From the NCBI RefSeq assembly GCF_007474605.1, contig NZ_VHKL01000005.1, positions 372,001 through 436,000 of the forward strand: a stretch of 64,000 nucleotides of DNA, written 5' to 3'. The stretch comes from Rhodoligotrophos appendicifer. GTDB taxonomy: Bacteria > Pseudomonadota > Alphaproteobacteria > Rhizobiales > Im1. This document shows positions 693 through 58,282 of the stretch, piece by piece (position 1 is the stretch's first letter; each line of letters starts with the position of its first letter). The notes beneath the pieces are model-generated. The model had not been told where the DNA came from, did not search any database, and saw only the letters and a list, made by a program, of their open reading frames with translations. The position numbers were made by a program, and so were the translations under genes.

Positions 693-754
693 GGTCCACA
701 CTCCGCCCGATGGGACGATGTCGAACTGGAGGGGGATGAGACGCCGAGGCAAGA

Positions 755-856
755 TCCATCCCTTCGCCAGCTTGACCTGGATCAGGTTCGAAGGGTCGCC
801 ATGTCGCGCTCGAAAGCGCCAATGGCCTCTCAGCCCCTGACGGGACTCCCCTTGGA
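755..856 (-). promoter_or_regulatory. TPP riboswitch (THI element) controlling thiO
   Basis: On the minus strand the order of conserved TPP aptamer blocks is complete. A GGGG-type helix leads into GGGGCTGAGAGG (top strand near 826-840), followed by GACCCTTCGAACCTGATC (about 781-799) and CAGGTC...GCTGGCGAAGGGATGGA (about 756-780). These are the CTGAGA and ACC-CTT-GAACCTGAT signatures that bind the pyrimidine and pyrophosphate of TPP. The aptamer ends about 65 bases before the thiO ATG. There is no evident terminator T-run, so control is more likely at translation initiation through masking of the Shine-Dalgarno near 705; that last point is inference. Confidence 0.93.
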
Positions 857-939
857 TGGCCCGTGATACGCCGACCGAGCCCGTCCCGTCAAATGGTGTC
901 CGGAGGCGCCTACTGCAAGCATGGTGGTGCAAGCTTGCT

Positions 940-21847: not shown

Positions 21848-21973
21848 GCGCCCATAAACCTCACACGCGGACGCTGGGCTGTCGCACCTTACATAGCGGC
21901 GGTCCTTCCGGTGTCGGCACAGGCCGGCTCACACGTTCGCGGCGGATCAACCGGAAAAAGGGAGCGTGCTGGC

Positions 21974-29648: not shown

Positions 29649-31967
29649 ATGCGCTACCGGTTCGTAATTGCCGCCTTTTTGGCCATGCTGTTTACCGTTC
29701 CGGGACCGATCGCGGGGATCGGCTTCGGGGTGAGCGAGGCGTATGCGCAGACTGTGTCGCGCATCGTTGTCGAGGGTAATCAGCGTATCGATCCAGAGAC
29801 CGTCGAAGCTTATATGCAGCTCGGCCCTGGCGATGCTTTCGACTCAGAGCGCGTCGACCAATCTCTGAAGACCCTCTTCCAAACAGGTCTTTTCTCTGAC
29901 GTTCAGATCTTTCAGCGCGGCAATGTGCTGGTGGTGAAGGTTGAGGAGAACCCGCTGATCAATCAGATCAGCTTCGAGGGCAACAGCGAGATTACCGACG
30001 TCAATCTCGGCAAGGAAGTCGAGCTGAAGCCGCGCATGGTCTTCACCAGGGCCCGGGTTCAGAGCGATGTTCAGCGCTTGACTGCACTCTACAGGCGCTC
30101 CGGGCTCTTCGCGGCGCGGATCGAACCCAAAGTCATCCGTCTGCCTCAGAACCGCGTCAATCTGGTCTTTGAGATCAACGAAGGCGAGACCACGCGTATT
30201 CAGCGCATCGCCTTCGTCGGTAATGAGGCCTTCTCCGATGGCCAGCTGCGCGATGTGATCACCACCGAAGAATCGCGTTGGTGGAAGATCCTCACCTCGT
30301 CGGACAATTATGATCCCGATCGCCTGGCCTACGACAAGGAACTGCTCCGTCGCTTCTACCTGAACAGCGGTTACGCCGACTTCCAGGTGCTGTCGGCCAC
30401 GGCGGAACTGTCGCCTGACGGCGAGAACTTCTACATCACCTTCACGGTGCAGGAGGGTCCGCAGTACAATTTCGGACCTGTGGCGGTGGATCCTGGCACC
30501 ACGGGCCTCAATCCGGAAGAGTTGATGACCAAGGTCAAGACCCGCGAGGGCGAGATCTACAACGCCGAACTGGTCGACAATTCCGTGGAGCGCATCACCG
30601 TCGATGCGGGCACGGCCGGCTATGCTTTCGCCAAGGTGCGTCCTCGGGTGGACCGCGACGAGGCGACCCGGACGGTTGGTCTGACTTACACTCTCGAAGA
30701 AGGCCCTCGCGTCTATATCGAGCGGATCGACATCGTCGGAAACACCCGGACACAGGATAATGTCATCCGTCGTGAAATCCGCTTGGTGGAAGGTGACGCC
30801 TATAATCGCGTTCTCGTGGACCGCGCGCGGCGGCGGATCACGGCCCTCGACTTCTTCGGCAAGGTGGACATCATCGAGCAGCCGGGCAGTGCGCCCGACC
30901 GGGTGCTCCTGACTGTTCAGGTTGAAGAGAAGTCGACCGGCACTCTGAACTTCGCAGCCGGTTACTCGACCTCTGAAGCGGTGGTGGGATCGGTGAGCGT
31001 CACCGAGCGAAACCTCTTGGGTAAGGGCCAGTTCGTCCGTTTGGCGACATCCTTAAGCTTCAAGCGTCAGGAACTGGATTTCAGCTTCACCGAGCCCTAT
31101 TTCCTCGGCCGCAACCTTTCTGCCGGTATCGACGCCTATGGAACGCGGACCGACCAGCAGAATGAATCGTCATTCGATCTCAGACAGGTCGGTGCGGGCT
31201 TCCGTTTGGGCTTCCCGCTGTCGGAAAACAGCCGGGTGACCACGCGCTATAACTTCACCAACCGCAAGATCTCGGACGTCCCGGATAATGCTTCGCAGGC
31301 CATTATCCAGTCCGAAGGCACCACCAACATCTCGCTGGTGGGAGCGACTTATGTTTATGACATGTTGGACAACCCTCTGCGTCCGACTCAGGGCTATCGC
31401 TTCCAGATGTCGGCGGATATCGCCGGCCTTGGCGGCGATGCGAAATGGGCCCGCAGTGAAGTCGCCGCCTATTACTTCTATCCCATCTGGGATGGCGTGG
31501 TGCTGATGGCCCGTGGTACGGCCGGTCACATGGAGCCGCTGAGCGGTGAGATCCAGCCGGTCGACCGGTTCTTCAAGGGTGGCAACTCCTTCCGCGGCTT
31601 CGAGCGTGCCGGTATCGGCCCGCGCGATACATCGACCTCGCGGGATGACGCTCTCGGCGGCTACACCTACGGCATCGGTACCGTTGAGGTAACGTTCCCC
31701 CTCGGCCTGCCGGAAGAGTTCGGCATCAGGGGTGCGGTCTTCTCCGATTTCGGTACGCTGTTCAACGCGCCGGATAACTTCTCCTGCTCCAACGGCAAGA
31801 GCGATTGCTTGGTCGGCGACAATTCGGCGCTGCGCGCCTCAGTCGGCGCCAGCGTGATCTGGGAATCGCCGTTCGGACCGCTCCGCTTCGACTTCGCCGA
31901 TGCGCTGCTGAAGGAAAAATACGACAAGACGGAATGGTTTAGGTTCAGCGTCGGAACCTCCTTCTAA
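29649..31967 (+). CDS. bamA: outer membrane protein assembly factor BamA
   Basis: 772 residues. A signal peptide ends near EAYAQ (about 35), then five POTRA repeats to about 430 (VSRIVVEGNQRIDPETV, INQISFEGNSEITD, TRIQRIAFVGNEAFSD, and so on), then the C-terminal 16-strand Omp85 barrel ending WFRFSVGTSF with a terminal Phe. The barrel motif GNSFRGF (VRGF/Y type) is present. It inserts beta-barrel proteins in the outer membrane. The ribosome site is weak. A strong terminator follows, and neither skp nor lpxD comes after it. Confidence 0.96.
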   Translation: MRYRFVIAAFLAMLFTVPGPIAGIGFGVSEAYAQTVSRIVVEGNQRIDPETVEAYMQLGPGDAFDSERVDQSLKTLFQTGLFSDVQIFQRGNVLVVKVEENPLINQISFEGNSEITDVNLGKEVELKPRMVFTRARVQSDVQRLTALYRRSGLFAARIEPKVIRLPQNRVNLVFEINEGETTRIQRIAFVGNEAFSDGQLRDVITTEESRWWKILTSSDNYDPDRLAYDKELLRRFYLNSGYADFQVLSATAELSPDGENFYITFTVQEGPQYNFGPVAVDPGTTGLNPEELMTKVKTREGEIYNAELVDNSVERITVDAGTAGYAFAKVRPRVDRDEATRTVGLTYTLEEGPRVYIERIDIVGNTRTQDNVIRREIRLVEGDAYNRVLVDRARRRITALDFFGKVDIIEQPGSAPDRVLLTVQVEEKSTGTLNFAAGYSTSEAVVGSVSVTERNLLGKGQFVRLATSLSFKRQELDFSFTEPYFLGRNLSAGIDAYGTRTDQQNESSFDLRQVGAGFRLGFPLSENSRVTTRYNFTNRKISDVPDNASQAIIQSEGTTNISLVGATYVYDMLDNPLRPTQGYRFQMSADIAGLGGDAKWARSEVAAYYFYPIWDGVVLMARGTAGHMEPLSGEIQPVDRFFKGGNSFRGFERAGIGPRDTSTSRDDALGGYTYGIGTVEVTFPLGLPEEFGIRGAVFSDFGTLFNAPDNFSCSNGKSDCLVGDNSALRASVGASVIWESPFGPLRFDFADALLKEKYDKTEWFRFSVGTSF

Positions 31968-31976
31968 GAACTTGAG

Positions 31977-32009
31977 ACAGGCCGGCACTTCGCCGGCCTG
32001 TATCTTTTT
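31977..32009 (+). terminator. rho-independent terminator after bamA
   Basis: A ten-pair perfect stem, ACAGGCCGGC / GCCGGCCTGT, with loop acttc and then ATCTTTTT. It starts 10 bases after the bamA stop and separates bamA from fabZ. Confidence 0.85.
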
Positions 32010-32089
32010 GAGCCATCGCTTGCGGTCGTGGTGTTCTGTTGCTAGCTATGCCTCTCCAAGTCCGAGGCATCAGTAAAGGCGACGCCGAC

Positions 32090-32566
32090 ATGGCGGAGAG
32101 CACCCCAGCAGTGACACTCGAGTCGGCCGATATCGGGCGCATCATGCGCCTCTTGCCCCATCGCTATCCGTTTCTGATGATCGACAGGATCGTCGACATG
32201 AACGGGGACCTCTCCGGCGTCGGCATCAAGAATGTCACCATCAACGAGCCGTATTTCGCGGGTCATTTCCCTGAATTTCCGGTGATGCCGGGGGTCCTGT
32301 TGATCGAAGCCATGGCGCAGACGGCAGGCGGGATCGTCATCGCCAGCCGCGGCGAGGAAGGCATGGGCAAGCAGGTCTTCTTCATGACCATCGACAAGGC
32401 GCGCTTCCGCAAGCCGGTGACGCCCGGCGACACCGTGCGGGTCCATGTGCAGCTCCTGCGCAAGCGCTCGAGCGTATGGAAATACAAGGGCGAGGCTTGG
32501 GTCGAAAAGCGCCTCGTGGCGGAGGCCGAGATCAGCGCCATGCTCACCGATGGCAAGGTGCTGTGA
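32090..32566 (+). CDS. fabZ: 3-hydroxyacyl-[ACP] dehydratase FabZ
   Basis: 158 residues. Hot-dog fold with [14 protein letters not shown] near 22, catalytic His59 in [15 protein letters not shown] and Glu73 in [10 protein letters not shown]. It dehydrates 3-hydroxyacyl-ACP in fatty acid synthesis. It stands between two terminators with no lpx gene on either side, although in most alphaproteobacteria it lies between lpxD and lpxA. Start ATG 32090 fits family length. Confidence 0.95.
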
Positions 32567-32587
32567 GTGTATCCGCTTCCGCCCAAT

Positions 32588-32618
32588 AAAAAAGCCGCCG
32601 GAGTTCGGCGGCTTTTTT
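32588..32618. terminator. bidirectional terminator between fabZ and gltA
   Basis: A6, stem GCCGCCG, loop gagtt, stem CGGCGGC, T6. The A-run and T-run make it work on both strands. It ends transcripts of fabZ (plus) and gltA (minus). Confidence 0.92.
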
Positions 32619-32639
32619 GGAGTTGGACTATTCGCAGCC

Positions 32640-33944
32640 CTATTTCCGCATGTCGATCGGAACGTAGCCCCGCTGCGTGGCCCCCGTATAGAGCTGCCGG
32701 GGCCGGCCGATCTTCTGGCTGGGATCTTCGATCATTTCCTTCCACTGGGCGATCCAGCCCACCGTGCGGGCGACCGCGAACAGCACCGTGAACATGGATG
32801 TCGGGAAACCCAGCGCCTTCAGCGTGATCCCCGAATAGAAATCGATGTTTGGATAGAGCTTCTTCTCGATGAAATACTCGTCATGCAGCGCGAGCTGTTC
32901 GAGTTCCTTGGCCACGTCGAACAGCGGGTCATCCTTGATCCCGAGCGCGTCCAGGACCTCGTGAGTGGTCTGCTGCATGATCTTCGCGCGCGGATCATAA
33001 TTCTTGTAGACCCGGTGCCCGAAGCCCATCAGCCGGAACGGATCGTTCTTGTCCTTGGCCTTTTCGATGAATTTCGGGATGTTTTCGGGATGCCCGATCT
33101 CCATCAGCATGTTCAGCGCCGCCTCGTTGGCTCCGCCATGGGCCGGCCCCCACAGGCAGGCGATGCCGGCGGCGATGCAGGCGAAGGGATTGGCCCCTGA
33201 CGATCCCGCCAGGCGCACGGTGGAGGTCGAGGCGTTCTGCTCGTGATCGGCATGCAGGATGAAGATCCGGTCGATCGCCCGCGCCAGAACCTTGTTCTGC
33301 TTGTAGGGCTCGCAGGGGACGCCGAAACACATGTAATGGAAGTTGGAGGCGTAATCGAGGTCGTTGCGCGGATACATGAAGGGCTGGCCGACCGAATACT
33401 TATACGCCATGGCGGCGATGGTCGGCATCTTCGCGATCATGCGCCGGCTGGCGACTTCCCGTTGCCAGGGATCATGGATGTCGGTTGAATCATGGTAGAA
33501 GGCGGCGAGGGCGCCGACCACGCCGACCATGATCGCCATGGGATGCGCATCGCGGCGGAATCCGGAGAAGAACCGGTTCATCTGCTCATGCAGCATGGTG
33601 TGATAGGTGATCGCCGTCTCGAACTCCGTCCGCTGCGCCGGATTGGGAAGGTCCCCATAGAGCAGCAGGTAGCAGGTCTCGAGAAAATCGCCCTGCTCGG
33701 CGAGTTCGTCGATCGGATAGCCGCGATACAGCAGGACGCCCTCGTCCCCATCGATATAGGTGATCTTGGATTCGCAGCTGGCCGTCGAGGTGAAGCCGGG
33801 ATCATAGGTGAAATTGCCGGTATCGGCATAGAGCGACGAGATGTTGATCACGTCAGGCCCGATCGTGCCCTTGCGGACCGGCAGATCTCTGGTCTGTCCG
33901 TTGATCGTCAGGCTGGCGGTCGGGTTCTTGACGTGCTCGTCCAT
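32640..33944 (-). CDS. gltA: citrate synthase
   Basis: 434 residues, of the type II hexameric citrate synthase class. Conserved parts include [58 protein letters not shown] and [15 protein letters not shown], which carry the catalytic His and Asp residues. It condenses acetyl-CoA and oxaloacetate in the TCA cycle. It is read away from gltX with a 174-base gap and ends at the bidirectional terminator. Confidence 0.97.
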
Positions 33945-56567: not shown

Positions 56568-57440
56568 ATGAAGGGTATCGACCATCTGGTGCTCTGCGCC
56601 GATGATCTCGACATGGCCACGGCCCGGTACAAGTCCATGGGGTTCACGGTGATGCCGCGGGCCGTCCATCCCTTCGGCACCATGAACAATCTTGTCCAGT
56701 TCGACGGCTCCTTTCTGGAGCTCGTCGCCCTCAACGATCGCTCCATCATCCCCGAGCATGGCGAGCGTTTCTTCAGCTTCGCCGCCTTCAACCGGGATTA
56801 TCTCGAGGAGGGCGAGGGCTTTTCCATGCTCGTCCTCGATTCGGACGATGCCCGCGCCGATCAGCAGCGCTTTACCGAGACCGGCATCTCCCGCTTCGAC
56901 CCCTTCGATTTCAAGCGCCTGGCCACACTTCCCGACGGCGAGCAGGTGACGGTGGGATTCTCCCTGGCCTTCGCGACACATCAGGCGATGGAGCGTGCGG
57001 CCTTCTTCGTCTGTCAGCAGCAGGCCCCGCAACATTTCTGGAAGCGCGACTATCAGATCCATTCCAATGGCGCGCTGGGTTTGGGCGATGTGCTGATGCT
57101 AAGCGACGAACCGCAGCGCTATGCGCCGTTCATGTCGGCCTTTACCGGGGTCGAGCCGCAAGTCACCGCGCCCGACGACATCTGCTTTCCCCTGCAGCGG
57201 GGCGGGGTCCGCATGCTCACTCCGGAAGCCTGGGACGTCCATTTCCCGGCAGCCTTTGCCCCGGACCTGGCCCGGGGCCCGTGCTTTGCCGGCTACACGG
57301 TGCTCGTCCGCGATCTCGCCCAGGCGACCGAATCCCTCGATGACGGCCATATCGCCTATCTGCGTGACGGCGAGCATCTCATCGTGGCCCCCGACGATGC
57401 CTTCAACACCATGATCCTGTTCCAGGCCCGGCGCCCATGA
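56568..57440 (+). CDS. VOC family (glyoxalase-like) protein
   Basis: 290 residues. The N-terminal half is a glyoxalase/bleomycin-resistance-like fold ([39 protein letters not shown]). His6 and Glu in LELVAL are candidate metal ligands. The second half is a looser repeat. Substrate unknown. It overlaps kdsA by four bases, but a link to Kdo synthesis is not established. Confidence 0.82.
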
Positions 57441-58282
57441 TCAACGCGACCGTCAACATCGGCGCCGTCCCCTTCGGCAATGACCGGCCCCTCGCGCTGA
57501 TCGCGGGACCCTGTCAGCTCGAATCGCGCCAGCACGCCTTCGACATCGCCGGCGCCCTGAAGGACATCACCGGCCGCCTGGGGCTCGGGCTCGTCTACAA
57601 GACCTCCTTCGACAAGGCCAACCGCACCAGCCTTTCCGGCAAGCGCGGCCTGGGCCTTGCAGCCGCCTTGCCGGTCTTCCAGGACATCCGCCGCGAGCTC
57701 GCTCTGCCGGTCCTCACCGACGTGCACGAGATCTCTCAATGCGCCGAGGTGGCCGAAGCCGTCGACGTCCTGCAGATCCCGGCCTTTCTCTGCCGCCAGA
57801 CCGATTTGCTGATCGCTGCGGCTGCCACCGGCAAGCCGGTCAATGTGAAGAAGGGCCAGTTCCTCGCGCCCTGGGACATGCAGAACGTGGTCGCCAAGCT
57901 CGAGGGCGCCGGGGCCTCCGACATCCTGGTGACGGAGCGCGGCGCCTCCTTCGGCTACAACACCCTCGTCTCCGACATGCGCGCTTTGCCGATCATGGCC
58001 CGCTTCGGCGCGCCCGTGATCTTCGACGCGAGCCATTCGGTGCAGCAGCCGGGCGGCCTCGGCGGTTCCTCGGGCGGTGATCGCGACTTTGTGCCCGTCC
58101 TCGCCCGCGCAGCCGTGGCCGTGGGTGTCGCCGGCATCTTCATCGAGACCCATCAGGATCCCGACCGCGCCCCCTCCGACGGCCCCAACATGGTTCCCCT
58201 GAAGGACATGGAGGCCTTGCTCGCCCGCCTCATGGCCTTTGATCGGCTGGCCAAGGATCAAGCCCCCGGCACGTCCAGATAA
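57437..58282 (+). CDS. kdsA: 3-deoxy-8-phosphooctulonate synthase
   Basis: 281 residues. Family motifs [64 protein letters not shown] and [12 protein letters not shown] are all present. It condenses PEP with arabinose 5-phosphate to make Kdo 8-phosphate for the inner core of lipopolysaccharide. Its presence implies that lipid A is made, despite the absence of lpx genes near fabZ. Confidence 0.97.

Follow-up and report, generated by a model that had tools for sequence, protein, structure and literature searches.

The window analyzed here is a stretch of 64,000 nucleotides (G000:C5:372001-436000) from a Rhodoligotrophos appendicifer genome of 5.59 Mb in 33 contigs that is rated 100% complete. 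Its gene order runs uppS-cdsA-dxr-rseP-bamA and fabZ; next come gltA and gltX, both on the minus strand, and after them comEC. The features that bear on lipid A are collected in Table 1. The hairpin between fabZ and gltA was seen by eye in the sequence and is absent from the output of the hairpin scan; it occupies the position of lpxA-lpxI-lpxB in lpx-bearing relatives. LpxD, LpxA, LpxI, and LpxB queries from Pseudovibrio had no match in the window among open frames of at least 60 codons. A TPP riboswitch (minus strand) and an Rfam rpsB match, at window positions 742-862 and 21862-21968, both look ordinary.

Table 1. Features of the window at and around the bamA-fabZ-gltA locus, with kdsA
Feature	Position	Strand	Basis and remarks
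bamA (772 aa)	29649..31967	+	Last gene of uppS-cdsA-dxr-rseP-bamA; Omp85 and five POTRA stretches
Terminator-like hairpin 3' of bamA	31977..32001	+	Hairpin scan; site is the lpxD position in lpx-bearing relatives
fabZ (158 aa)	32090..32566	+	PF07977; FabA domain; alone between bamA and gltA
Perfect hairpin A6-GCCGCCG-GAGTT-CGGCGGC-T6, probable bidirectional terminator	32588..32618	.	Read directly by eye
gltA, citrate synthase	32640..33944	-	Adjoins the lpx block in many lpx-bearing relatives
kdsA, Kdo-8-phosphate synthase	57437..58282	+	NF003543, 423.7 bits (cut-off 242)

Pseudovibrio has the order bamA-lpxD-fabZ-lpxA-lpxI-lpxB, and genomes of seven lpx-bearing families show it complete, most of them with gltA as the adjoining gene. 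The bamA-fabZ order without lpx recurs in the other three genomes of the family and is therefore more than chance. The same order is found in an alphaproteobacterial MAG (L013), an uncultured Rhizobiales MAG (L014), and Aestuariivirga sp. YIM B02566 (L021); by their identical coordinates the two MAGs correspond to genomes G038 and G078 in the order sample. gltA directly follows fabZ only in some lpx-less genomes, its place being taken by other genes in G001 and G002 and by kdsA in G023 (L160). An earlier note on this DNA had described a terminator behind bamA, a solitary fabZ, and a bidirectional terminator leading to gltA, with four lpx genes absent from an otherwise intact neighborhood. This description is confirmed throughout, terminator status being probable, and the absence is borne out by the window search and the gene order of the relatives. 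The note was also right that the case would be informative about lipid A evolution.

Whole-genome searches gave the same result as the window. LpxC (PF03331) has no match in the whole genome of G000, with E. coli and Caulobacter controls positive, and none in 4/4 family genomes, two of which are single contigs; LpxC is present in 258 of the 297 genomes of the order sample, for which the name Hyphomicrobiales (Rhizobiales) was taken from its named members. WaaA (PF04413) is missing from all four family genomes, and the controls, including Caulobacter, were positive. LpxD, LpxA, LpxI, and LpxB are also missing from all four, in which a joined Pseudovibrio LpxD-FabZ-LpxA-LpxI-LpxB query matched FabZ only; all five genes were recovered by this query in 5/5 lpx-bearing controls. 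LpxD, LpxA, and LpxB of the query exceed curated cut-offs, and LpxI was named from its sole match, which lies under the cut-off. Of the lipid A and Kdo transfer genes, the searches covered LpxC, LpxA, LpxB, LpxD, LpxI, and WaaA. The LpxC and lpxA/lpxB steps that mark the ordinary LPS-bearing type are thus absent from the family genomes.

An assembly gap is rejected as the cause of the absence by the agreement of the two single-contig genomes, and the whole-genome searches reject a move of the genes to another place. The earlier note had considered the genes probably moved or replaced. No moved copies were found, and replacement is supported in a sense that the note did not foresee, through a sphingolipid pathway that has an LptF/LptG pair of its own. 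The note had also named an outcome that would undo its reading, that sister genomes never had lpx genes here. Sister genomes are indeed without them, which makes the loss ancestral to the lineage, but other families have lpx at this very place, which makes it a real loss.

The loss is old and clade-wide, covering about seven families of Hyphomicrobiales, and a separate loss took place inside one other genus (g35). A neighborhood tree of nine proteins (34 rows, 3841 columns) joins the family at 100/100 with f22, f36, f37, f38, and f47, none of which has lpx; f14, also lpx-less, is close by. An affiliation of G000 with the sphingomonads was rejected, since its clade includes relatives under the titles Rhizobiales and Aestuariivirga and two of the named MAGs belong to the order sample. 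The number of families is approximate because support is weak for the branches around Parvibaculum and G015. Genus g35 contains a separate lpx-less group, and a third lpx-less pair, G052 and G066, is placed elsewhere. The lpx states on the tree need four changes, two of them forced by well-supported branches. In 19 distinct lpx-less genomes the only matches to LpxA, LpxI, or LpxB are weak ones to hexapeptide repeats (E about 1e-4); the LpxC search covered 17 of these, all but G299 and G300, and found them LpxC-less. G111 has an LpxD remnant next to fabZ, and distant LpxD-like frames occur elsewhere in G038 and G079. G089 is LpxC-less but has LpxA, LpxI, and LpxB; with a genome completeness of 84%, incomplete sampling may explain why LpxC is missing.

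Two further groups stand apart. G052 and G066 are without LpxC, LptD, LptF/LptG, KdsA, and Spt over the cut-off, and keep BamA; six f51 genomes are without LpxC and without Spt over the cut-off. Both groups look like a different, deeper kind of LPS loss.

A sphingolipid gene cluster is present in G000 on another contig (C4, locus L103). Its first half encodes an aspartyl hydroxylase, an ABC exporter, a GNAT-type ceramide synthase, two nucleotidyltransferases, a metallophosphatase, and a HIT-like protein; the second half consists of lptF, lptG, and genes for a CDP-alcohol transferase, a lipid kinase, and a CpgC-like protein, followed by spt and genes for an acyl carrier protein, a reductase, and an acyl-AMP ligase. 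About 3 kb separate the LptF/LptG pair from spt. Spt scored 587.9 bits (cut-off 500) and the acyl-AMP ligase 764.4 (cut-off 600), the ceramide synthase match is borderline at 20.8 bits (cut-off 20.7), and the HIT-like protein match is under its cut-off. Domains were assigned to the lipid kinase (PF00781), the CDP-alcohol transferase (PF01066), and the nucleotidyltransferases, one of them of cytidylyltransferase type (PF00483 and PF12804/PF02348); the CpgC-like protein has no Pfam match and is labeled from position only. The CpgA/B/C/D names are putative, given from domains, gene order, and the functions described in PMC11324152. A 178-aa gene at the cluster end was considered as a candidate LptC2, a role for which no support was found: its product matches no Pfam family and has its hydrophobic stretch at the C terminus.

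Other members of the family, and sister families, also carry the cluster. A largely similar order is found in G001, G002, G092, G300, G048, G079, and G039, and with gaps in others. Spt is over the cut-off in 4/4 family genomes and in 26/39 LpxC-less versus 2/36 LpxC-bearing genomes, counts that are not independent because the genomes are related; it is the two separate losses that matter most. G007 is counted among the LpxC-bearing genomes. Weaker Spt-like matches, at 466-472 bits, occur in LpxC-bearing G020 and G051 (about 467) and in LpxC-less G278 and G089. The 13 LpxC-less genomes without Spt over the cut-off comprise f51 (6/6), G066, and six genomes that are <90% complete (G062, G089, G114, G123, G161, and G278). 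Lipid A can therefore be lost without sphingolipids, since Spt is absent from the LpxC-less f51 genomes and G066.

The cluster pair belongs to a distinct kind of LptF/LptG. Exactly two LptF/LptG genes are present in 4/4 family genomes. The trees of 28 LptF and 29 LptG sequences part lptD-linked from cluster-linked copies at 100/99 in each, and the LptF2/LptG2 of the sphingolipid cluster form a clade separate from ordinary LptF/LptG. Copies labeled ordinary in these trees lie beside lptD, with the exception of G007 L138, which was labeled beforehand and has no neighboring lptD in view; copies labeled spt lie in the sphingolipid cluster, with spt itself on another contig in G023 and G015. The cluster rows of G020 are very long branches to be discounted. 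A joint LptF/LptG tree was a quick search with long branches, and the claims rest on the separate trees. Both cluster proteins of G000 score under the NCBIfam cut-offs for the LPS transporters (LptF 204.9 versus 230; LptG 210.3 versus 240). The window-trained codon model is poor on G007 (L138, L139), G104 (L118), and partly G038 (L111); trees and locus maps were built from plain open frames instead of its gene calls.

Scores against the two kinds agree with the trees for further copies. The ordinary kind is present in the twelve lpx- or LpxC-bearing genomes examined, G007 apart. Among the 24 lpx-less or LpxC-less genomes with classified copies, it occurs only in G015, as one LptG; in G113 the pair beside spt was left out of the classification. 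Extra single LptF-like genes nearer to the cluster kind are found in G037, G068, G104, G113, and G185. G007 has LpxC, Spt, and both LptF/LptG kinds, and no LpxA, LpxI, LpxB, or LpxD was found in it despite LpxC. A third, divergent LptF/LptG-like pair was seen in G038, G079, and lpx-bearing G042 (L183, L184, L188).

Genus g35 holds both states and allows a close comparison. Five species have lpxD-fabZ-lpxA-lpxI-lpxB (G035, G076, G141, G169, and G251), and in five others fabZ is accompanied by no more of this set than an LpxD-like gene or its remnant (G111, G192, G214, G234, and G268). In the lpx-less species the LpxD-like gene lies between bamA and fabZ (L126:8713, L127:9288, L176, L177); it is cut down in G111 and nearly full length in G268. 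Four of these five species were placed in the neighborhood tree, where they form one clade (99/98). LptF/LptG genes number four in the four lpx-bearing species searched, G169 not being among them, and two in the five lpx-less species, both of the cluster kind. These counts and kinds indicate that ordinary LptF/LptG vanishes with lpxA/I/B and that the sphingolipid-linked pair stays.

LpxC-family matches in this genus were recorded separately. Each of the five lpx-bearing species has two, so that the second LpxC-like gene may serve another role. In G192, G214, and G234 a match at about 1e-67 to 1e-70 was found, versus about 1e-97 in relatives, and lpxA, lpxI, and lpxB are absent.

LptD is present in 4/4 family genomes. 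In G000 lptD-surA-pdxA-ksgA is kept at its old place without lptF-lptG in front, and lptD is preceded by ABC-transporter-type genes on the opposite strand (named by eye). In eight lpx-bearing genomes (G036, G042, G016, G024, G053, G020, G035, and G251) lptF-lptG stands directly before lptD-surA-pdxA-ksgA, and this lptF-lptG-lptD operon does not occur in G000. LptD of G000 is well over the Pfam cut-off but, with a score of 100.9, falls far short of the NCBIfam equivalog cut-off of 683. The LptD of G092, a single-contig genome, falls in two frames (L153:8346-9158 region) and may be broken or carry a sequence error. LptD and LptF/LptG are kept in 17/19 distinct lpx-less genomes, G052 and G066 being the exceptions. 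Between-family LptD identity is 38.8% among lpx-bearing genomes, 41.5% among lpx-less genomes, and 32.6% across the two. The corresponding values show little gap for pdxA (52.2/50.2/49.4) and ksgA (62.7/59.7/58.9), and a gap like that of LptD for surA (29.2/31.1/23.1). The LptD identities fit a shifted but maintained protein and are no proof of a changed cargo.

The Kdo pathway is kept as well. KdsA is present in 4/4 family genomes, a KdsB-type CTP_transf_3 match of 122-144 bits is found in each of them, and kdsB of G000, outside the window (L123:9624-10433), passes the KdsB equivalog cut-offs. KdsA is kept in 13/19 lpx-less genomes and missing in G039, G052, G066, G078, G079, and G104. The earlier note had reasoned from kdsA to Kdo and hence to lipid A; this step fails, as KdsA and a KdsB-type gene are kept in all four LpxC-less, WaaA-less family genomes, and the presence of kdsA cannot safely be read as a sign of lipid A. 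With kdsA and kdsB retained in genomes that have neither waaA nor lpxC, the acceptor of CMP-Kdo would seem to be something other than lipid A. In G000 kdsA and kdsB are surrounded by what appear to be housekeeping and transporter genes. Inspection by eye of the 20 kb around kdsB of G000 and G092 revealed no capsule or glycan cluster, and a Kdo-using capsule cluster beside kdsB is rejected for this span. The acceptor of CMP-Kdo is the main loose end, and replacement by sphingolipids does not account for the retention of KdsA and KdsB.

Along with the gene losses, the cluster, the identity of the LptF/LptG paralogs, and the co-loss, all of them observed, the analysis gives a lipid structure and a transport route that are predicted from sequence. 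The lineage has probably given up lipid A, which anchors endotoxin, and with it ordinary LPS, and has put in its place anionic phosphosphingolipids exported by LptF2/LptG2 through LptD. Spt and its partners would make dihydroceramide, to which the Cpg-type enzymes would add phosphoglycerate, and the ABC exporter would flip the resulting phosphosphingolipid. LptF2/LptG2, with the presumed LptB, LptC, and LptA, would then lift it from the inner membrane, and LptD would insert it in the outer leaflet. Several observations weigh against this reading: the ordinary LptG in G015, the combination of LpxC, Spt, and both LptF/LptG kinds in G007, the Spt-like matches of LpxC-bearing G020 and G051, the LpxC-less f51 genomes and G066 without Spt, the kept KdsA and KdsB, the low NCBIfam score of LptD, and the borderline or sub-threshold matches of the ceramide synthase and the HIT-like protein. 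A wider formulation has about an even chance of being right: the LPS transport machine changed cargo when a clade of about seven families and one separate genus dropped lipid A synthesis with its LptF/LptG, LptF2/LptG2 took over the shared LptD, and CMP-Kdo decorates another lipid via another transferase. If true, LptF2/G2-LptD would be the missing bacterial sphingolipid transporter.

The alternative that survives best, although unlikely, is that lipid A was lost and sphingolipids are made, but LptD and LptF2/LptG2 carry some other lipid, for example a Kdo-bearing glycolipid, and the sphingolipids reach the surface otherwise. The 13/19 lpx-less genomes with KdsA speak for this, since WaaA is absent in the four tested and CMP-Kdo should have another acceptor. 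Against it, LptF2/LptG2 lie inside the sphingolipid cluster and not with kdsA or kdsB, and the f38 genomes G039 and G079 keep LptD and LptF/G but are without KdsA.

It is highly improbable that the remaining Lpt components and KdsA are decaying leftovers from the lipid A loss. Lpt would have nothing to carry if lpx alone were lost, LptD, LptF/G, and KdsA are gone from G052 and G066, and the G092 LptD lies in two frames, all as decay would have it; yet the loss is common to about seven families while LptD and LptF/G persist in 17/19 lpx-less genomes, and LptD is 41.5% identical between lpx-less families versus 38.8% between lpx-bearing ones. That lipid A is still made, by moved lpx genes or unrecognized replacements, would agree with the kept KdsA, KdsB, LptD, and an LptF/LptG pair, but is scarcely credible with LpxC, WaaA, and LpxA/B/D/I missing from four family genomes, two of them single-contig, and with a remaining LptF/LptG of the sphingolipid-linked kind after the ordinary pair has gone.

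Replacement of lipid A by phosphosphingolipids, the favored reading, makes this order a case of natural genetics, in which lipid A is gone, ordinary LptF/LptG is gone, and LptF2/LptG2 and LptD stay. If confirmed, it would add another large group without lipid A beside the Sphingomonadaceae, and would be likely to affect the response to polymyxin and LpxC inhibitors and the outcome of endotoxin assays.

Sphingomonadaceae are described as Alphaproteobacteria without LPS that have glycosphingolipids or ceramide lipids in the envelope (PMC7956469). The family of G000 resembles them in lacking the lipid A synthesis genes searched for and in having Spt and ceramide genes. S. wittichii is reported to have orthologs of 16/17 genes of the Caulobacter region, including the second Lpt genes, and the Sphingomonas genes are described as scattered (PMC11324152), whereas in G000, which belongs to a different taxonomic order, the genes form one cluster with lptF-lptG inside. 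The head group predicted for G000 is phosphoglycerate, in contrast to the glycosphingolipids of the Sphingomonadaceae. Anaplasmataceae and Wolbachia are reported to have lost Kdo2-lipid A genes (PMC3087551); these are intracellular, whereas most lpx-less genomes of the order sample are 2 to 7 Mb and keep LptD and LptF/G.

The cluster of G000 also resembles the Caulobacter crescentus region CC_1168-CC_1152 for ceramide diphosphoglycerate (CPG2), which includes a second LptC/LptF/LptG set, LptC2/LptF2/LptG2 (PMC11324152). By domains and order, G000 has the same kinds of genes, with a second-type LptF/LptG pair beside spt and the ceramide genes. In that paper a role of Caulobacter LptF2/LptG2 in phosphosphingolipid transport is only suggested, not investigated (PMC11324152), and according to a 2024 paper flippases and transporters for bacterial sphingolipids had yet to be identified (PMC11087976). 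Caulobacter keeps lipid A (its LpxC and WaaA matches are positive), whereas G000 has lost both the lipid A genes and the ordinary pair, which leaves LptF2/LptG2 as the sole pair. Laboratory Caulobacter without LPS is reported to be viable in part through CPG2, an anionic sphingolipid (PMC12275187); that strain is a mutant, whereas in several Hyphomicrobiales families the lipid-A-free state is predicted to be natural. The main text of the Aestuariivirgaceae genome paper (PMC8555084) does not contain the terms lipid A, lipopolysaccharide, lpx, or sphingo by term search, and searches of open-licence full texts yielded no account of lipid A being lost and replaced by sphingolipids in Hyphomicrobiales. 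LPS-less bacteria with sphingolipids are a known kind; as far as these searches reach, what is new is the lineage in question, the clean loss of ordinary LptF/LptG together with lpx, and the retention of the Kdo pathway.
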